DNA of 59,863 bases from an uncultured Candidatus Saccharibacteria bacterium. GTDB taxonomy: Bacteria; Patescibacteriota; Saccharimonadia; Saccharimonadales; Saccharimonadaceae. Positions 3,363 to 15,896 of this stretch are shown here, piece after piece. The stretch lies in the NCBI GenBank assembly GCA_947425245.1, contig CANDYU010000006.1:1-59863 (forward strand), in the 5' to 3' direction. Position 1 is the first letter of the stretch. Each line of letters starts with the position of its first letter. Under the pieces are notes generated by a model. That model did not search any database and was not told where the DNA came from. It saw only the letters and a list, made by a program, of their open reading frames with translations. The position numbers and the translations under genes are program-made.

Positions 3363-4349
3363 ATGCCAGTGAAGATAGTCTCGCTATTTTCCGGTGCGGG
3401 AGGCTTAGACCTCGGATTTGAGAAAGCTGGTTTTTCCACGATTTGGGCAAACGAGTTTGATAAAAAAATCTGGGCAACCTTTGAGCATAATTTTCCGCAC
3501 ACTAAATTAGACCACAGAAGTATTACCGATGTATCGGTGGAAGAAATTCCAGACTGTGATGGAATGATTGGCGGACCACCGTGCCAAAGCTGGAGTGAGG
3601 CTGGCGCTGGTCGTGGGATTAAGGATAAACGTGGTCAACTTTTTTATGATTATATTCGCATTATCCAAACTAAGCAACCGAAGTTCTTTTTAGTAGAGAA
3701 CGTGTCAGGCATACTCAGTGCAAGGCATCGTGAAGCATTCACTGGCTTCCTGAAAGCATTTGAAGGCTGTGGCTACACAATCAATTGGAAATTAGTCAAC
3801 GCTAATGATTACGGAGTGCCAGAAGACCGTGAGCGCGTTATTATTATTGGTTATCGTAACGATTTAGGTAAGAAGTTTGAGTTTCCTAAACCGGAAGAGC
3901 ATAAACCGACTCTGCGTGAAGCGATTGGCGATTTGCCGGAAGCTTTACCGGCTCTTACTACAAACAAAACTAACGGTGAGACGACGCCATTAAATAACGA
4001 ATACCTAACTGGCGGATTCTCTTCGATTTATATGTCACGTAATCGTGTCCGTTCTTGGAATGAGCCATCGTTTACGATCCAAGCCGGCGGTCGGCAAGCC
4101 CCGATTCATCCAAAGGCTCCTCGTATGGTAAAGATTGAGCCAAACAAACAAATTTTTGCTCCTGGTCACGAAGACGAGTATCGTCGCTTAAGTGTGAGAG
4201 AATGTGCACGCATTCAAACTTTCCCCGATGATTTTAAATTTATTTATGTTGATGTTGCAGATGGGTATAAAATGATTGGCAATGCTGTTCCTGTGAATCT
4301 AGCAAAGGCGATAGCTCTAAAAATCAAGGAGGACTTATTCAGTGAATAA
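3363..4349 (+). CDS. DNA cytosine-5 methyltransferase, M.HaeIII-like
   Basis: Transfers a methyl group from SAM to C5 of cytosine in DNA. The conserved motifs are in order: FSGAGGLDLGF (I, residues 9-19), PCQ with the catalytic Cys near 74 (IV), ENV at 110-112 (VI), the SVRECARIQTFPD segment (IX) and the GNAVP segment (X). At 328 aa it matches small type II enzymes. The next gene is a HaeIII-family endonuclease, so GGCC is the expected target (family knowledge). It would protect the element and host from that enzyme and could act as an addiction unit. The ATG has AAGGAGG 9 nt upstream. Confidence 0.93.
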   Translation: MPVKIVSLFSGAGGLDLGFEKAGFSTIWANEFDKKIWATFEHNFPHTKLDHRSITDVSVEEIPDCDGMIGGPPCQSWSEAGAGRGIKDKRGQLFYDYIRIIQTKQPKFFLVENVSGILSARHREAFTGFLKAFEGCGYTINWKLVNANDYGVPEDRERVIIIGYRNDLGKKFEFPKPEEHKPTLREAIGDLPEALPALTTNKTNGETTPLNNEYLTGGFSSIYMSRNRVRSWNEPSFTIQAGGRQAPIHPKAPRMVKIEPNKQIFAPGHEDEYRRLSVRECARIQTFPDDFKFIYVDVADGYKMIGNAVPVNLAKAIALKIKEDLFSE

Positions 4350-5310
4350 TGCAAATAACAACACCTATGGTCGTGCCTACGAATATGCTTGTCTTACTCA
4401 ACTAGCAAAGTCGGTAGCCACGACGCACTCAGTTGAAATCCTTAAGGATAATCATTTTGCAGCGACAGAACGTTCGTGGAATGAGATTGATGACGAACTA
4501 CGTGACAAATTAACCAGAAGTGGTAAAGCTGCAGCAGAAACTATTTTAACCCTAGAAAAGATGATTATTGCTGATGGTGGTGATCCTACGATTTTGTCAA
4601 TACAGCCCGATCAAGCTGGTGGGAAGGGCGATGTTCGGGATATTCTAATCAGAAGAAAAGACCGACGTTGGGAAGTTGGTCTAAGTATAAAACATAATAA
4701 TTTTGCCGTGAAACATAGCAGGCTAGCAAAGACTTTAGATTTTGGTGATAAATGGTTCGGAGTGAAATGCTCGCAAGAATACTGGAGTGAAGTTAGCCCG
4801 ATTTTCTCTTATCTTGATGAGGAACATTATAAGAAAACTGAGTGGAAACATCTGCCAAACAAAGAGATGGACGTTTATGTCCCTCTACTAAAAGCCTTCT
4901 TAGCGGAGCTTGAGCGTGCCTACGCGCATGACCAGACTATACCGCAAAAACTTGTGGAGTATCTTCTGGGTCGATACGACTTCTATAAAGTAATTAGTCT
5001 AGATAGTGAACGATTGACAAGAATTCAACCAGTAAATCTACACGGCACGCTTAATAAACCAGATGGAGCAAATAAGCCGACTCTCGTAATACCAGTATCT
5101 GCTTTACCGACTCGCATCATTGCGGCGGGAATGCGTCCTGGGAGTAGTAACACTGCTGAACTCTTCTTAGACAAAGGTTGGCAATTTAGCTTCAGAATTC
5201 ATAATGCTTCAACTATTATAGAATCTAGCCTAAAGTTCGATATTAAATTTGAAGGATTGCCAGTCACAATTGTCTCTATCAATGCTCCGTGGGAGGAAGA
5301 TAAGTGCTAG
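4342..5310 (+). CDS. HaeIII-family type II restriction endonuclease
   Basis: 322 aa, close to the length of R.HaeIII. Recognised from family-like segments: YGRAYEYACL at the N-terminus, the ATERSW region, DQAGGKGDVRDI, and SIKHNNFAVKHSRL, which probably contains catalytic residues. It should cleave unmethylated GGCC. The GTG start overlaps the methyltransferase stop by 8 nt and has AAGGAGG upstream, so the nuclease is translated after the methyltransferase, as is usual for safe establishment. The assignment is by pattern memory, not a search. Confidence 0.85.
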   Translation: MNNANNNTYGRAYEYACLTQLAKSVATTHSVEILKDNHFAATERSWNEIDDELRDKLTRSGKAAAETILTLEKMIIADGGDPTILSIQPDQAGGKGDVRDILIRRKDRRWEVGLSIKHNNFAVKHSRLAKTLDFGDKWFGVKCSQEYWSEVSPIFSYLDEEHYKKTEWKHLPNKEMDVYVPLLKAFLAELERAYAHDQTIPQKLVEYLLGRYDFYKVISLDSERLTRIQPVNLHGTLNKPDGANKPTLVIPVSALPTRIIAAGMRPGSSNTAELFLDKGWQFSFRIHNASTIIESSLKFDIKFEGLPVTIVSINAPWEEDKC

Positions 5311-6899: not shown

Positions 6900-9800
6900 T
6901 TAACCTTGTTGTGGTGGCTCGGAAGTCGTTAATTGTTCTAGCTGACCTAAGAAGTATTTCTCTATGAAATCCCATCTGCTCACATCGTCTTTTAGGGTTG
7001 CGAAGAAGTAGCTCATTAGCTCACACGATTCTTTATGCTTTTTGCCGACAACTGATACAGTTTTACTAACATAATTTGGATTATCGATGATTTTCTTGAT
7101 AGCTGATGGATCGTTCACGCGAATAAAGAACTCTGGATTGGTTCCCGCCATAACTTTACAATTTGCCATTTCCAGCAATTCCAATAATTGTGCAACAATA
7201 ATATCGGTGGATGCTGTGTTGCCGGCATATCTTACAGTATGATTTGATTCTGGATCACTCAAGAAGATATTAGCTACACCGCGCAACCTTTTGATTCGAG
7301 TTTCATAAGTAGAATTTTTGATGTAGTATTTTCCAGTATTTCCAAAGTAATTTGCAAAACCATAAGAGAGTGCGCCGGTCATATTGCGTAACTCCACTCT
7401 TTCTAATAATCTGATTACTGATCCTGCTACTGCTTCGGCTTGGTATTTCTTTTTAACACACCTCTTCTCGAGTATACGAGAGGATAGCTCTTCTACGCCA
7501 AAATGCTTATTTTCTTGATGTAGATCATCGAAAATCTCCTGAATGGCATCAAGAAAATCGAATAATTTCATTTTTGTTGCAACGAGATTAGTTGGGGTAT
7601 TTATGTCGATGACAACTCTTTGAATTAGCATCTCTCCAACTTTAAAATTGAAATCCAACTCATTTTCCATGAAGTTTCGCTTAAACATACCAAATGACAT
7701 ATCACGATAACGATGTTCCCAAAGTGCCTTAAAGTCTAGCTTATAAGTGTATCCCGGAGAACGCACAGTGATTTCAGGATCAAAACGCCGAGCGCCTGCT
7801 TGCTTGACTGTTAGTGGTAGATTTAACTTAGTAAAGTAACGCATTAGTCCTTTTTGTTGTAGCTCGGGCACAAAATCATCATTCACCATAAAATACCCAT
7901 TTGTGAACATGCTACGGGGCTTAAAGATTAGTGGTGGGTAATTTGATCTAGAACTAGCTTCAAAGTCCTTTTTGATCATAAGTAAGGTCGTTTTTAATCG
8001 ACTATCGATATCTTCTAATTCCAAGTCAGCAAAGATATAAGAGAATTCCTCTGGTGATACTAAGAAATTACGTTTACGATAGCGTAAATATAATTCGAAA
8101 ATCTTGCGTAATACACCCGTAACTTGATAATTCTTGATGCTCGACATACCATACAACTGGTTAATGTAACGGAAGTCTTCCTTATAATAATCAGTTACAG
8201 CAACGCCAGTCATTTCTGATCTACGCGCGACGCGACCTATCTCCTGTATGTAGTCGGTAATATTGCCAGTTGGAGCAAAATGATAAACATATTTGATGTC
8301 ATCGATATCAATCCCCATGCCAAATGCTTTTGTGGCCAAAACGACATTTTTTGTCCCATTACTAATTTGCTTCAATGTATCATTTTTCTCTGCTGCTGAT
8401 AGTCCACCATAGTATTTTCCAATCTTCTCAGGATTGTTGATATTTTCATATAACTCATCGATATGCTTGGTATATGGAGTGTAAACTAGCACTTTGTCAT
8501 TGGTTTGCATTAGCTCGTTGATGGAGTTAGATGCAACTTCAAGCTTTTCGGATTTATAATCTGCAGTCTCCTTGTTTTTACACCTAATGTCAAAATTAAT
8601 ATCATCCCTCCGAACATTACCAATATACTTATTAGGTGTCATCTTAAGCGATTCGATAATGTCTCGATACATATCGTCATCACTATTAAAAGTTGCTGTA
8701 GCTGTAAAAGTCACAATAGGAAAGGTGTAACTTATTCTCGAGCTATTCCGAAGGTTGTTAATAAAATCGCCCAAATACCAGTAGTCTGGACGGAAGCTTT
8801 TGCCCCAAGTCGCAACAATGTGTGCTTCATCGACAACTACTAAGCCAATTTGACGATCGCCAATTAGCCCACTGATATCAGTATTGGAGAGTAATGATTC
8901 TGGCGAAAGATACAGAATCGACTTTTCACCTTTTTTGATTTGCTCTAGTGTTTCTTCCTTTTGGTATGGCGTGTAGTCCGAATTGATGGTTGCCGCTTGG
9001 TTAGTCATACTTTGGATGTTGTGAACTTGATCATTCATCAAGCCGATCAAGGGCGATATCACAATCGTGACTAAATTATATGTTTCTGCAAGATAAATTG
9101 CTGGTATTTGGAACATCACAGATTTTCCAGCGCCAGTTGGCGCAGTTACAAACACATCACGAAAGGTTTGTGAATCCTTAGCACGAATGGCATTTTGAAC
9201 AATGTCGTCAATTATTCTTACTTGACTTATATCAACGAGTTCGTTGCTCTCGTAAGGGTTATTATAAATCTTTAGAGTGCGAAAGCCATATTCTGGATTC
9301 TTTCGATGCAAAATTTCTAAGTAATTTGACATCAAATCTGTAGTGACGTCCACTTCAGGCGCCTGATACTCACGATAATAAAAATTCACACCGAGTGGTT
9401 TTAATTTGTTTTTGATATATTCAATATTTAAGTCGGCACCGCTAGTAGATGATAGGGCGCTCAGACTCGAAATGTGATTTTCAAGGACTTCAGTTATTAA
9501 ACCCGAGAAGACTGCGGGGGTGTATTCTTCTGGTATTTCAAGATGATCTGTGCCACCAACCTTAAATCCACTTTGATTGAGCAATTCTGAAATGTCGATG
9601 TTTTCACACTTTGGCAAATCAAAACTGTTAAATGCAGTATAAACAGTATCGCCATTTTCCTGAACGTCGCCATAGAATAACTGCACTAAATTATCTTGTT
9701 CTGATTCATAATCTGACTTGATTCTTTGCGAACTCGCATGATCCTTTGGTCCAGGATAATACAACTCATAAAAATCGTTATTTAGAATTACAATTTCTTT

Positions 9801-10073
9801 GCCTACGGCAAGTAATGTTCCGATCATTTGCTGGTCTGATAGTGCAATTAAACTCTCATGAGTAATAAAACGACATTCTTCTGTAGCCAAGAGCAACTTG
9901 ATGATGCCTTGGTTCAGTGAAGCCTTTTCGGAAAACACCGTTTCTTGATTAAAAAGGAAATCTTGCTTGATATCGGCTAGATATCTATTAAAGCCCTTAA
10001 GCACGAAAATCGTGTTCGGTTGTGCAAGATTGTTGATAATATCGACAATCTTGTCTTTTAGAGTGTTACTCAT
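6900..10073 (-). CDS. Large RecQ-type DEAH helicase
   Basis: 1057 aa. The central helicase core has Walker A TAPTGAGKS (about 309-317), PLIGLMNDQ, DEAH (about 415) followed by an aromatic-rich FRPDYWYLG loop typical of RecQ, TATATF, the FGMGID segment and QEIGRVARR (motif VI, about 610). About 300 residues before the core and 400 after it match no domain I know; the usual RecQ zinc and HRDC signatures are not visible. It probably unwinds DNA with 3'-5' polarity. Large helicases of this shape occur in defence and mobile-element modules. It is preceded by an unusual 185-nt structured leader. Confidence 0.85.
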   Translation of the reverse strand: MSNTLKDKIVDIINNLAQPNTIFVLKGFNRYLADIKQDFLFNQETVFSEKASLNQGIIKLLLATEECRFITHESLIALSDQQMIGTLLAVGKEIVILNNDFYELYYPGPKDHASSQRIKSDYESEQDNLVQLFYGDVQENGDTVYTAFNSFDLPKCENIDISELLNQSGFKVGGTDHLEIPEEYTPAVFSGLITEVLENHISSLSALSSTSGADLNIEYIKNKLKPLGVNFYYREYQAPEVDVTTDLMSNYLEILHRKNPEYGFRTLKIYNNPYESNELVDISQVRIIDDIVQNAIRAKDSQTFRDVFVTAPTGAGKSVMFQIPAIYLAETYNLVTIVISPLIGLMNDQVHNIQSMTNQAATINSDYTPYQKEETLEQIKKGEKSILYLSPESLLSNTDISGLIGDRQIGLVVVDEAHIVATWGKSFRPDYWYLGDFINNLRNSSRISYTFPIVTFTATATFNSDDDMYRDIIESLKMTPNKYIGNVRRDDINFDIRCKNKETADYKSEKLEVASNSINELMQTNDKVLVYTPYTKHIDELYENINNPEKIGKYYGGLSAAEKNDTLKQISNGTKNVVLATKAFGMGIDIDDIKYVYHFAPTGNITDYIQEIGRVARRSEMTGVAVTDYYKEDFRYINQLYGMSSIKNYQVTGVLRKIFELYLRYRKRNFLVSPEEFSYIFADLELEDIDSRLKTTLLMIKKDFEASSRSNYPPLIFKPRSMFTNGYFMVNDDFVPELQQKGLMRYFTKLNLPLTVKQAGARRFDPEITVRSPGYTYKLDFKALWEHRYRDMSFGMFKRNFMENELDFNFKVGEMLIQRVVIDINTPTNLVATKMKLFDFLDAIQEIFDDLHQENKHFGVEELSSRILEKRCVKKKYQAEAVAGSVIRLLERVELRNMTGALSYGFANYFGNTGKYYIKNSTYETRIKRLRGVANIFLSDPESNHTVRYAGNTASTDIIVAQLLELLEMANCKVMAGTNPEFFIRVNDPSAIKKIIDNPNYVSKTVSVVGKKHKESCELMSYFFATLKDDVSRWDFIEKYFLGQLEQLTTSEPPQQG

Positions 10074-10258
10074 TTCTTGAAGCCTCGTTTAGTTTGAACA
10101 ACTCTGTAGAGGCCATAAAAAATACAGCCACATACAGGCTGTTCAAACTTTTCGTAGACAAGGCTTCAAACCCGAATACTAGTATGTGGCTGTATTCTGG
10201 ATTCGAATCGGAGCTACAGCTCCGTCCTTGTCTAAAATAATTTTTGAAAAGTTTGAAC
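10074..10258 (-). promoter_or_regulatory. Structured 5' leader of the RecQ-like gene
   Basis: Perfect inverted repeats interleave here: 10141-10153 with 10246-10258 (13 bp), 10155-10163 with 10226-10234 (9 bp), 10121-10135 with 10182-10196 (15 bp), 10140-10149 with 10091-10100 (10 bp), 10161-10169 with 10077-10085 (9 bp), plus a 6-bp hairpin at 10209-10224. In the leftward transcript, which would start near 10258, the first two and the last two pairings exclude each other, because arm 10141-10153 and arm 10155-10163 overlap partners of both sets. The 15-bp pairing is followed by six U (terminator-like). The 10077-10085 arm covers the likely Shine-Dalgarno. A cis-acting switch is inferred; iterons or an origin are the alternative, since TTTGAAC recurs four times. 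Confidence 0.6.
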
Positions 10259-10264
10259 AATATC

Positions 10265-10293
10265 ATTGTAACATATATCTCCCATTTTGAACA
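10265..10293 (-). promoter_or_regulatory. Leftward promoter of the RecQ-like gene
   Basis: On the minus strand TGTTCA (10293-10288) is 17 bp from TACAAT (10270-10265). The start would be near 10258, exactly where the first repeat arm of the leader begins. The -35 lies in the arm TTGAACAGA of the dyad at 10287-10322. Confidence 0.5.
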
Positions 10294-11553: not shown

Positions 11554-13700
11554 AGAACTATCTCGAGTGCAAAGAAGTTGAATATAAGGAGCATGGCAAT
11601 GAGCTAATGTTTGCGTGCCCGAATGGGTGCGACAACGATGATGTCGAATCGGAAAAATATCATTGTAGCATCAATGCTGAAACAGGTCTATGGCATTGTT
11701 TCAAATGTGAAGCGAAGGGTAATTTCTTCACACTCAAACAGCAATTTGGCGATGTCTCAATTGCAAATACCACAAAATCTGGCAGTAAAAAGGCTTTGGC
11801 GATGCCTAAGAAATTGCTAACAGTTGCTAGTAATTGTCATAAGGAATTAATGAAACCGGAGAATAAACTGCTCCTTGACTACTTACTGATAGAGCGTAAA
11901 ATCACGCTCTATAATGTCAATACATTAATGCTTGGATGCGGCGAGTTTTACGGCAAAAAATGGTTAACAATTCCAATTATCGAAAATAAGGATTGCAGGC
12001 TCATCAAGCTCCGTCGTCTTCCGAACGATACGGATGGGGCAAAATATATGACCTACCCTGAAGGCGCTGGTTCGGTAGTATTTGGCGCAGTCGAGCTTCA
12101 ACGTTCAAGCTCAAGTTCGGTGCTAATTTGTGGTGGTGAATTTGACCGCATAATCGCAAACCAGATGAAGTTCGGGATGCCAGTTGCTACAAGCACTGCA
12201 GGAGAAGGCACTTTCAAAAATGAATGGATCAATTCTTATCTTAATGGTCGGGATAAGATCTACATCTGTTTTGACAACGACGAAAAAGGTAGAGATGCTA
12301 CTGTCGCTCTAGCCAAAAAGATTGTCGATCAACTTCAAAATGTGAGTGTCTACACTATGCCAATACCCGAAGAACTTGGCGACAAGGCCGATCTAACCGA
12401 TGCTAATAGGGCAAACTTCACAGCAGAACAACTTTTGTCACACGCTAAGTTAATTGCTGGCGACGAGCCAGTTAATGCTGAAGATTTTAAAGAGATGTCA
12501 CTTGCTGGTCTACAAAAAGTGCTCAGCCTTACCATTAAATACGATGACATCAATAAAGTAGTTGTGTTCTTGGCTATGCTGTCAGCATACACTGAGGAAG
12601 ATCAACTTAACGTGTTCCTTAATGCTCGCTCATCAAGTGGCAAGACATACATTGCGAGTGAAACAGCAAAGCTCTTCCCAAAAAATGATGTCAGAAAGTA
12701 TATGCGTATTACGCCTACAGCATTTTATTACGATGACCAAGCGATGACGCAAAACGATTCAGGCGACATGGTGTTGGACCTGTCTCGTAAAATCTTACTT
12801 TTTATGGACCAAGTTGATACTAAATTACAGACCATGATTCGACCTCTATTGTCTCATGATGACAAGAAAACTGCTTTTAAGCTTACGAATCGTAGTAATA
12901 GCGGTAAGAATGCCACCGTGAATGGCTACATCCTTGGTTATCCCGCGACCGTCTTCTGTTCGGCGAATATGCAAATGGACGAGCAAGAACAGACTCGTGC
13001 AATTCTGCTTAGTCCAGAAATAACGCAAGAAAAAATTAGTGCAGGAATTGATTTATATCAGTTGCGAGCGAATGATAACGGTAACTTTCAAAATGAGCTT
13101 TCTTCTAATCAGGAGCGTAAGCAGCTAATACAACGTATTCGTTTTATCCGTAGCTTAGAGATTCGCTACATTATAATTCCAAAAGAGCTAGAAGTCGGGA
13201 AGACCTTTAAGTCTACAATCAAAGGCAACTTATTACCTCGTCATCAGCGAGATAGCCAACACTTTAATTCACTAGTAAAGGCTTGTGCTCTCTTGAATGC
13301 CCCAAAACGAGAAATACGAGGACAAGACTTGGTAGCAACGAAGGCGGATGTTGACGCGGCATTAATGATTTGGGGATTTTTGGGACGGAGCCAACAATAT
13401 GGTGTTCCGCCACAAATGTTGGACTTTTATGAACAAGTTATCGTTCCTGCGTATTTAGCAAAACATAGTAGTGCGAAAACCTTTGCTGGGATCACGATGG
13501 ATGATTTGTTTTCATATCATCATAGCCAAACTGGCGAAATGTTGAACCGTGACCAAGTTCGCAAACAATATTTGCCTGTAATTGAGCAAGCTGGCTTGAT
13601 TAGTTACGAGAAAGACCCTAATGATAATCGACGAATGGTGATCACTCCATTGATTGGTAATTTCAGGACTACTAATTCTCAGGAAGGAGAACAGAAATGA
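11517..13700 (+). CDS. Primase-helicase-like replication protein (Zn ribbon, toprim, ATPase)
   Basis: 727 aa. The N-terminus has a zinc-ribbon pattern (FACPNGC, then WHCFKC). A toprim domain follows, with GGEFD (about 205) and FDNDEKG (about 245), the acidic metal ligands of DnaG-like primases. A P-loop RSSSGKTY (about 370) and the LLFMDQVD segment suggest an ATPase/helicase of phage or plasmid type. It would start replication of the excised element. Start by AAAGGAG 7 nt upstream of ATG. Its stop overlaps the next ATG (ATGA). Confidence 0.8.
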   Translation: MQKRQSLSQDEVKNYLECKEVEYKEHGNELMFACPNGCDNDDVESEKYHCSINAETGLWHCFKCEAKGNFFTLKQQFGDVSIANTTKSGSKKALAMPKKLLTVASNCHKELMKPENKLLLDYLLIERKITLYNVNTLMLGCGEFYGKKWLTIPIIENKDCRLIKLRRLPNDTDGAKYMTYPEGAGSVVFGAVELQRSSSSSVLICGGEFDRIIANQMKFGMPVATSTAGEGTFKNEWINSYLNGRDKIYICFDNDEKGRDATVALAKKIVDQLQNVSVYTMPIPEELGDKADLTDANRANFTAEQLLSHAKLIAGDEPVNAEDFKEMSLAGLQKVLSLTIKYDDINKVVVFLAMLSAYTEEDQLNVFLNARSSSGKTYIASETAKLFPKNDVRKYMRITPTAFYYDDQAMTQNDSGDMVLDLSRKILLFMDQVDTKLQTMIRPLLSHDDKKTAFKLTNRSNSGKNATVNGYILGYPATVFCSANMQMDEQEQTRAILLSPEITQEKISAGIDLYQLRANDNGNFQNELSSNQERKQLIQRIRFIRSLEIRYIIIPKELEVGKTFKSTIKGNLLPRHQRDSQHFNSLVKACALLNAPKREIRGQDLVATKADVDAALMIWGFLGRSQQYGVPPQMLDFYEQVIVPAYLAKHSSAKTFAGITMDDLFSYHHSQTGEMLNRDQVRKQYLPVIEQAGLISYEKDPNDNRRMVITPLIGNFRTTNSQEGEQK

Positions 13701-14134
13701 AAAGCAATTATGATGTTGAGCAAATCTTTCATAAAATGCGCTCAGCGCAAGTCACCGCCAGTCTAGCAACAAAGGTTAAACGTGGAGAATTCCCCGGAAA
13801 GGCTCCGATTGGCTACATGAATAATAGCCAAACTAAGCAAATTGTGCCAGATCTAGAAACGTGGGAAATAATCAAAGAAGTGCTAGAGCAATATGCTACA
13901 GGTAAATTCTCGATTGAGTGGATTAGCCAATTTTTAAATGAAAACTTGCCTTCTATTCAGCATGGAGGACGAAAGCCACTCACAAAAGCTCGCGTAAAGG
14001 CTATCTTGAGTAATCCATTCTATCGTGGTGATTTTACCTTCCGAGGTAGAGTGTTCCACGGTAGACATAAACCAATGCTGACAGGAGAAATGTTCGATAA
14101 AATCCAAAAACAACTGAAAGGAGGCAAAATGTAG
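13697..14134 (+). CDS. Stand-alone 'Recombinase' DNA-binding domain, no catalytic domain
   Basis: 145 aa matching the middle domain of large serine recombinases: GKAPIGYMNN near residue 35, a helix region, then LTKARVKAILSNPFYRG and the HGRHKPMLTGEMFDKIQ segment. The N-terminal resolvase domain with the catalytic Ser is absent, and so is the Cys-rich zinc part. The ATG overlaps the primase stop (ATGA), so it is translated by coupling. It might bind att sites and modulate the adjacent full recombinase, or be the surviving piece of an older one; its intact start and stop favour retention. Confidence 0.75.
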   Translation: MKSNYDVEQIFHKMRSAQVTASLATKVKRGEFPGKAPIGYMNNSQTKQIVPDLETWEIIKEVLEQYATGKFSIEWISQFLNENLPSIQHGGRKPLTKARVKAILSNPFYRGDFTFRGRVFHGRHKPMLTGEMFDKIQKQLKGGKM

Positions 14135-14173
14135 AATACTGTAACAAAAACTATCCAAAATGACTAATAACAG

Positions 14174-14217
14174 GGGTAAAAGCGGTATAATTAGCTTAAG
14201 AAAATGCCATTTTACCC
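14174..14217 (+). promoter_or_regulatory. Recombinase promoter flanked by an inverted repeat
   Basis: TATAAT at 14186-14191 and a Shine-Dalgarno AAAAGGAG at 14223-14230 precede ATG 14240. GGGTAAAA (14174-14181) and TTTTACCC (14210-14217) flank the -10 and start site as a perfect 8-bp inverted repeat, a plausible operator for keeping the recombinase off. Confidence 0.4.
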
Positions 14218-14239
14218 TATCCAAAAGGAGAAATTTCTT

Positions 14240-15834
14240 ATGCAAAAAATCGATAAAAAGAATGTTAAGTATGTGCTTTATGCACGCAAAAGCACTGAAG
14301 CTTCCGATAAACAAGTCCAGTCTATAGATGATCAAATTCGGATCATGAAAGAACGCGCAAAACGAGAAGGCTTGCAAATTGTTAAAATTTTGTCAGAAGC
14401 TAAGTCTGGCGGTAAACCGGGCATGCGTCCAGAATTCGCTAAGATGATCGATATGATTGAAAATGGTGAAGCTAACGGTATTCTAGCCTGGAAACTTGAT
14501 CGCATTAGCCGTAACCCTCTTGATAGTGGCTATGTGCATCAGATGATGAATGATGGTAAGATCGCTTGGATTTTAACTGATGGGCGTGATTATTGTGAGG
14601 ATGATGATGTGATCTTCGATGTAGAATCCAGTATGGACGCCCGATATCGTAAGGATTTGATGAAGAACGTCCGACGCGGGATGTTTAGTAAGGCAGAGAA
14701 AGGCTGGAAACCAGGTGTGCCGCCAACAGGTTATCTAAATGACCGCGCTAATCGCACAATTATTCTAGATCCAGTTAACGGTCCACTCATGCGAAAGGTT
14801 TTTGATCGCTGGCTAACTGGCACAGCTTCACTTACTGATCTGACAAAATACGCCAAGGAACTAGGACTACGCACCCCTCAGCATCGTGAGCGTGGTGGTA
14901 ATCCCGTCAGTCTTAATGGTTTACGCCATTTGCTCCGTAATCCATTCTATACTGGTAAATTTAAATATGGAGGTCGATTATATAATGGTAATCACCCTGC
15001 ACTAATTTCTGATGAGGAATACGATCGAGTTCAGCGATTGCTTGGAGGACTACATAATACTCGTCCACAAAAAGATGAATTGTCGTTTGTTACAAAGGGG
15101 ATGCTGAGATGTGCAAAGTGTGGCTATGCTGTAGTTGTCGAGCGTGTCACAAAGAAATATAAAAACGGCACCAGCAAGAGTATGTGTATTGTCATTGTAG
15201 TGGTAAATGTAAAAAGTTTAAATGTGATCAGAAAAGCGTTAATACTCCAGAAAAAGAAATTCTGGATCAAGTTCGTAATGAACTGACAAAATACACTATC
15301 GATCCGAACTTTTATAAGTTAGCGATAGAAGCACTAGCCGAAGAGGAGCAACAACGTGTGAGCGAACGAGATATGCGACTCAAAGAGCTGAGGAAAGAAC
15401 AAGACAGAAAGCATAGCGAACTCGATGGCTTGCGCCGCATGCGTTATACTGGCGAATTAACCGATCAAGTTTGGTTTATGAATGAATCTGAGAAAATTCA
15501 GGCTAGGATTGATGAGCTGGAGAAAAATATCAACACCGTAGAAACTGCAGTCAAAGATTGGCGTAAATATGCCGACCAAGCTTTTATGTTCGCTCGTTAC
15601 GCTAAAGAGGATTTTGATAGTGGCGATCCTGAACGAATGCAATATGTAATGAAGGCTCTTGCGGAACTCAAACTTTTGGATCGAACTGTTTTGTTTACCC
15701 CTATTAAATACTTAATTCCAATCAAAAAAGCCGTTTCTGAAATGAAAAGCAAATCTGAAACGGATCCAACTCATATTTTACAGGGGTCAAATGACCTTTC
15801 CGGTTTTAATTCTAAACTGTGGTGGAGTATATGA
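14240..15834 (+). pseudogene. Large serine recombinase (integrase), one-base frameshift
   Basis: The N-terminal resolvase domain starts YVLYARKSTEASDKQ with the catalytic Ser in RKS, and contains ILAWKLDRISRN. Next come the Recombinase domain (GVPPTGYLND, then LRHLLRNPFYTGKF), a zinc ribbon (LRCAKCG, then CHCSGKC) and a coiled-coil region. The frame breaks near 15175-15178; one extra base after the Ser-Lys codons would restore reading into YCHCSGKC. So one gene of about 530 codons is split by a deletion or a read error. It should integrate and excise the element. Start at ATG 14240 by its Shine-Dalgarno rather than 14204. The last codons lie inside the tRNA-Ala gene. Confidence 0.85.
15820..15834. 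other. Putative attachment-site edge at the tRNA 3' end
   Basis: The last five codons of the recombinase frame (W W S I stop) overlap the 3' end of the opposite-strand tRNA-Ala. The tRNA 3' end points into the element, the usual geometry of integration into a tRNA 3' end. The matching copy at the left end would be outside this window. Confidence 0.4.
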
Positions 15835-15896
15835 GACTCGAACTCATGACCTCTTCAATGCCATTGAAGCGCTCTAGCCAACTGAGCTAATACCCC
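15820..15896 (-). tRNA. tRNA-Ala (GGC)
   Basis: On the minus strand the 77-nt gene folds as a full cloverleaf: acceptor GGGGTAT with ATACTCC (one G-T), D-arm GCTCAGTTGGCTAGAGC, anticodon stem CTTCA/TGAAG with loop ATGGCAT giving anticodon GGC, and a T-arm with GTTCGAGTC. The discriminator A and the CCA end are encoded. A minus-strand TATAAT at 15910-15905 supplies a promoter starting just before the mature 5' end. Confidence 0.93.

Follow-up and report, generated by a model that had tools for sequence, protein, structure and literature searches.

The window, the 60-kb stretch of DNA analyzed here (59,863 nt), belongs to a Saccharibacteria-type genome of 882 kb and carries on its minus strand a gene (6900-10073) for a 1057-aa RecQ-like DEAD/Helicase_C protein. 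The best PADLOC model for this protein is C3a193 ('poss. alt. Cas3'), and its long N-terminal region has no Pfam family. A pair consisting of a C5 methyltransferase and a HaeIII-type restriction enzyme (3363-5310) adjoins the gene. At 13697-15834, a serine recombinase is split across several ORFs beside a tRNA-Ala (15820-15896), and this region is probably a decayed integrated element.

A preliminary description of the window reported six inverted repeats in 185 nt upstream of the RecQ-like gene. All of these pairs are present, including those at 10091-10100/10140-10149 (10 bp), 10155-10163/10226-10234 (9 bp) and 10121-10135/10182-10196 (15 bp), the last of which crosses the others as a pseudoknot and adjoins a U6 tract. 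The upstream pair 10141-10153/10246-10258, given as 13 bp, also exists and is actually 14 bp long (10140-10153/10246-10259). As reported, there are four occurrences of TTTGAAC, counting its complement. The leader holds two of the three perfect inverted repeats of at least 13 bp (arms at most 150 nt apart) in the 60-kb window, and the 146-nt leftward RNA folds at -56.1 kcal/mol, compared with -27.6 +/- 3.6 kcal/mol for shuffled sequences (z = -7.9). The repeats are confirmed as real and lie far above chance expectation.

On the minus strand, the window element shows a promoter-like site, a stem P1 at the 5' end, stems P2 and P4, a loop-tail pseudoknot, an overlapping terminator, a U-tract and the gene. 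The putative extended -10 promoter, TGTTACAAT (10266-10274), was assigned from its sequence and from family-wide spacing; it ends 6 nt upstream of P1, and the RNA is predicted to start at approximately 10259. P1 is composed of a 5' arm (A, 10246-10259), placed at the predicted RNA 5' end, and a 3' arm (A', 10140-10153), in which compensatory changes are seen in relatives. P2 pairs B (10226-10234) with B' (10155-10163), and it is followed by a side hairpin, P3 (CGGAGC-UGUA-GCUCCG, 10209-10224), which is also predicted in many relatives. Stem P4 (5' arm, 10192-10207; 3' arm, 10165-10179) had been overlooked in the preliminary description, as had a local intrinsic terminator, ACAGCC-UGUAUGU-GGCUGU-AUUUUUU (10142-10137/10129-10124), a sequence feature whose predicted hairpin has an energy of -8.7 kcal/mol and is followed by AU6. 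The loop segment C (10182-10196), the 5' strand of the pseudoknot, pairs with the tail strand C' (10121-10135), the 3' strand, which overlaps the loop and 3' strand of the terminator. The terminator 5' strand t5 (ACAGCC, 10137-10142) overlaps the 3' end of A', its 3' strand t3 (GGCUGU, 10124-10129) lies within C', and the U6 tract occupies 10117-10122. Further downstream are a copy of the start of A (10091-10100), which could capture A' after read-through, and a start-codon-proximal segment (10077-10085) that is complementary over 9 bp to 10161-10169. In the genome G109, a comparable stretch that can pair with A' sits at the start codon of a RecQ-like gene (L064).

A blastn search found one sequence homologue of the element, upstream of a NucS-like gene in the genome G060, and a weaker one before a glycosyltransferase gene. 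Both G060 homologues keep P1 and the loop-tail pairing despite changed bases. An 82-aa ORF that spans the window element is not kept in these two relatives (C2 and C1), where inspection by eye showed other frames and stops, and a coding-leader reading was therefore dropped. Leaders of unrelated sequence within the same genomes were uncovered by a pairing descriptor. Anchored to -10 boxes, it covered 16,839 promoter-like sites: the whole of the window's genome (G000), the greater part of G060 and a portion of G276. As the control, each downstream region was shuffled three times (approximately 50,000 shuffled regions in total). At scores of at least 52, there were 12 distinct members in the three genomes (six in the window's genome and six more in two relatives) versus none in the shuffled regions, and nearly all of the 12 have a TG-extended -10. 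No member turned up in the 400 kb sampled from G427, a genome of the same order, or in the 200 kb sampled from G378.

Because these first 12 members had been chosen for pairing, the evidential weight lies on members found by sequence, and we used sequence-only searches to avoid circularity. A 22-nt pattern from the loop of subfamily I led to further members, one genome being G126 and the other G228; their P1 arms differ yet are complementary. A 25-nt pattern from the terminator tail of subfamily II matched 28 of 295 genomes (17 of 61 genera), and the reversed pattern, used as a control, gave no match in the 295 genomes. The whole architecture, namely promoter, P1 and C:C' pseudoknot, was present at 27 of the 29 places found with the tail, and L228, L232, L210 and L218, judged by eye, have it too. 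Since the tail pattern already covers the end of A' and the greater part of C', the independent information sits in the P1 5' arm and in loop C. RNAalifold, applied to 21 aligned tail-found members, picked C:C' unaided, with compensatory changes from C-G to G-C and from A-U to G-C. In this alignment, 98.7% of the P1 and C:C' cells are paired, and changes on both sides were counted in eight pairs and 34 cells, as against 8.1 +/- 2.5 cells after shuffling and at most seven with slid partners. Individual folds in subfamily II show P1, P2, often the side hairpin, and P4 with its knotted loop. The absence of compensatory changes had been named beforehand as evidence against a structured leader; homologous leaders do show them, in conserved pairings.

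To describe the distribution of the family, a covariance model (R1) was built with P1 pairs only. Of the 149 genomes searched within the order, 33 give a match; these fall into 23 of 104 genera, in many different families, and the best E-value is 2.6e-25. From two genome searches, 33 loci were examined, and 28 of them satisfy the descriptor. In 14 members from outside the window's family, their own C arms score 33.4 versus 17.6 for swapped arms, and their own P1 arms also fit far better than swapped ones. Matches outside the order are rare. There were three weak ones, of which one (L269 in G606) shows every part of the architecture, upstream of a gene whose product reads as restriction enzyme and methyltransferase in one; the other two are without this architecture. 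R1 gives no match to the window element. A second model (R2) was built from two sequences, the window element and the relative closest to it. It recovers the G060 glycosyltransferase leader, which is absent from the model, with an E-value of 9.7e-6; among five further matches, three satisfy the descriptor, and by eye the pairing can be made out in L275 but not in L279. Altogether, 72 members were checked, that is, 68 distinct ones, three R2 members and L269. The median member is 130 nt long. In 58 of the 68, P1 starts 5-6 nt past the -10 (3-12 nt were allowed), so that the RNA 5' end would be sealed in P1. Subfamilies I, II and III are united by architecture rather than by sequence, and it is by architecture that subfamily III, to which the window element belongs, connects with the large subfamily II. 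Across many genera, subfamily II retains nucleotides beyond those needed for pairing (an AAAnGGCACC...AAGC loop, and UUGUGAAUGG beside P1); such a candidate aptamer core is conserved inside subfamily II, not between subfamilies. A blastn search against a phage collection gave no match, and pattern scans of viral contigs gave none except L208, which lies inside a phage gene and was rejected as a chance match.

The terminator and the pseudoknot share bases. Because C pairs with the terminator loop and 3' strand, the two structures are mutually exclusive. Although the t5:t3 hairpin was not demanded by the descriptor, it is strong and uninterrupted in 14 of the 17 members of the first set (82%, versus 30% with swapped tails). 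In 16 of these 17 members the knotted state lies 7-16 kcal/mol below the nested fold when no pseudoknot penalty is applied, the exception being a member in G109, for which the same penalty-free difference is just 1.7 kcal/mol. Pseudoknot penalties of the order of 7-16 kcal/mol are usual, and therefore both states would be within reach; according to these energy models, the pseudoknotted and nested states are both plausible. The terminator pairs show no covariation in subfamily II, where they are nearly invariant, and in many members of that subfamily the A residues preceding C are able to pair with the U-tract. The preliminary description had taken the 15-bp pair C:C' for a terminator. It does adjoin U6, but a better reading is that it competes with the shorter local terminator. 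Since C:C' ends at the U-tract in many other members too, the pseudoknot itself might act as the terminator, with the opposite polarity. An earlier suggestion that pairing hides the Shine-Dalgarno motif holds above chance only in the two RecQ-like leaders, those of the window (z = 3.6) and of G109 (z = 3.8). It is not a feature of the family, and general Shine-Dalgarno sequestration was dropped. In these two leaders, the complementarity of the start-codon segments to the leader suggests a possible second, translational layer.

The genes that follow the checked leaders are mixed and mostly accessory. They include a Tsp45I restriction enzyme (L209), N6/N4 methyltransferases (L212, L267), EcoRI-type and C5 methyltransferases (L276, L278; new members found with R2), RecQ-like helicases (window, G109), a gene with a weak NucS_C match (G060), Ltp exclusion-type lipoproteins (L221, L234), T4SS pilins (L094, L236), DUF4352 and DUF4190 proteins, OmpA-like proteins, Fib_succ_major surface proteins and a serine recombinase. 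In L100, L113, L142, L216 and L237, the leader stands upstream of a gene for a large secreted surface protein, and two of these proteins match Fib_succ_major. Some contigs carry more than one leader: in L064 of G109, two near-identical copies precede the RecQ-like gene (9836-10000) and a methyltransferase-like gene (approximately 13330-13500); in L226, tandem subfamily II leaders each precede a small gene; and in L092 (15780-17295), two divergent leaders flank a Rep-like gene and precede a DUF2726 gene and the start of a serine recombinase. The closest homologue of the RecQ-like protein (58% identical; L156, 9995-13177) is encoded on a phage-type contig with tail tape-measure and portal-like genes, and its gene has no structured leader, the ATG lying 7 nt past a TATAAT.

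The window element is probably the RecQ-like gene's own 5' leader, and it would belong to a family of transcription attenuators that act in cis and are specific to this lineage. The preliminary description had proposed a switch that controls the helicase. A structured leader with mutually exclusive pseudoknot and terminator stands, most likely as a transcription switch; its specificity for the helicase is rejected, because many unrelated Saccharibacteria genes share the architecture and the phage-contig homologue is without a leader. In the mechanism that we propose, RNA polymerase would start at approximately 10259 and the RNA 5' end would be built into P1. P1, P2, the P3 side hairpin and P4 would fold first, exposing the loop segment C. 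As the tail emerges, the end of A' and the tail could form the t5:t3 terminator, and transcription would stop at the U-tract. Alternatively, loop C could capture the loop and 3' strand of the terminator together with some of the U-tract; the resulting pseudoknot would leave t5 to P1 and block the terminator, and read-through into the gene would follow. The order of folding and the shared bases suggest, in this model, a co-transcriptional choice between local terminator and loop capture, which some signal at the P4 loop or junction would set. We infer that such a signal exists. We also infer that the OFF state is the hairpin and the ON state the pseudoknot: it is the hairpin that is shaped like a terminator, and most members have it even though the pseudoknot could form without it.

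What might set the choice can be considered from the loops and the targets. A trans-acting protein or small RNA may recognize the P4 loop or the helical core, a reading that we entertain as a fair possibility short of an even chance: geometry is steadier than sequence, loops are conserved inside subfamilies, and functionally mixed targets would suit a global regulator. However, the genomes contain no second match to their own C loops beyond 11-14 nt, apart from sister leaders and their own tails, and an antisense promoter-like site (TGnTAnnAT on the opposite strand; promoters of other types fall outside this pattern) occurs in just two of 68 members. The conserved subfamily II loop and the nucleotides beside P1, unexplained by pairing alone, could instead belong to a riboswitch proper, in which a small molecule at the P4 loop and junction stabilizes or blocks the pseudoknot, and a pseudoknot opposed to a terminator is normal riboswitch logic; yet the loops of the three subfamilies differ within one genome and the downstream genes have no common metabolic pathway, so that we consider this reading rather doubtful. 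Leader-peptide attenuation would need an internal Shine-Dalgarno motif and start, which only six of 68 members have. It is also conceivable, though unlikely, that there is no signal and that the element is a constant partial terminator or 5'-stabilizing cassette that keeps acquired genes low; the mostly accessory targets and the closeness of the two states in energy would fit, whereas the conserved loop sequence and two exclusive pairings exceed what a fixed terminator needs.

Other readings would separate the element from the gene. Its own promoter-like site and terminator would suit a free-standing small RNA that ends at the U-tract, but the start codon, where identified, usually lies 20-70 nt past the U-tract with a Shine-Dalgarno motif, which leaves little room for another promoter and makes this reading improbable. 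The preliminary description also offered a DNA-level element (iterons, an origin or a recombination site), with which the TTTGAAC repeats and the nearby serine-recombinase element would agree. We regard it as very nearly untenable, because the promoter-like site, the terminator polarity with its U-tract and the RNA-type, G-U-tolerant covariation are conserved in one orientation, and many chromosomal copies precede surface genes. A MITE-like repeat was likewise disfavored, since the stems of the copies are wholly different in sequence and a blastn search of the window's own genome gives a single copy. Returning to the attenuator, we speculate, with considerable reserve, that one switch architecture with a few loop classes controls restriction-modification, anti-phage and surface or secretion genes genome-wide in Saccharibacteria, all answering to one common signal in the cell, for example attachment to the host, starvation or the entry of a phage.

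The leader family is widespread in these tiny epibiotic bacteria and apparently undescribed. When the Rfam 15 covariance models were applied at their gathering scores, no family matched any stretch searched, tRNA genes alone reaching the threshold, and the best matches on the window element were sub-threshold snoRNA and miRNA models. In the literature searched, nothing of this kind turned up for Saccharibacteria or for Patescibacteria. According to a review, the mechanisms that govern the differentiation of Patescibacteria between cell states are completely unknown, and an inducible expression system for them is yet to be developed (PMC11665869). Gene regulation in Patescibacteria being nearly unknown, an order-wide, promoter-linked attenuator family that often precedes restriction-modification, exclusion-type lipoprotein, pilin and surface genes offers a concrete handle; it can be tested in vitro without culturing the organisms and may supply a natural expression switch.

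Among known systems, T-box leaders are alike in combining a terminator with an antiterminator, but no T-box model matched the new leaders and their targets are non-biosynthetic. In the antisense attenuators of plasmids pT181 and pIP501, a leader loop decides between a terminator and an alternative pairing, and the sequence varies by system. The new leaders share these properties; unlike them, they are chromosomal and multi-copy, and neither an antisense promoter nor a gene for a complementary RNA was found. The pIP501 antisense-RNA attenuator is cited in PMC7430163. For the fthC candidate and related motifs, it has been noted that the terminator stem-loop could pair with a preceding hairpin (PMC11109978); this proposed block of the terminator via a pseudoknot with an upstream hairpin is similar, although the fthC-type motifs (PMC11109978) differ from the new family in bacteria, size and sequence. 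Finally, the pseudoknot transcriptional riboswitches for fluoride, ZTP and preQ1 likewise set a pseudoknot in a 5' leader against an intrinsic terminator. The new family differs from these classes in being without a common aptamer sequence or an Rfam match, and in the target of its pseudoknot, which is the loop and 3' strand of the terminator itself together with some of the U-tract.
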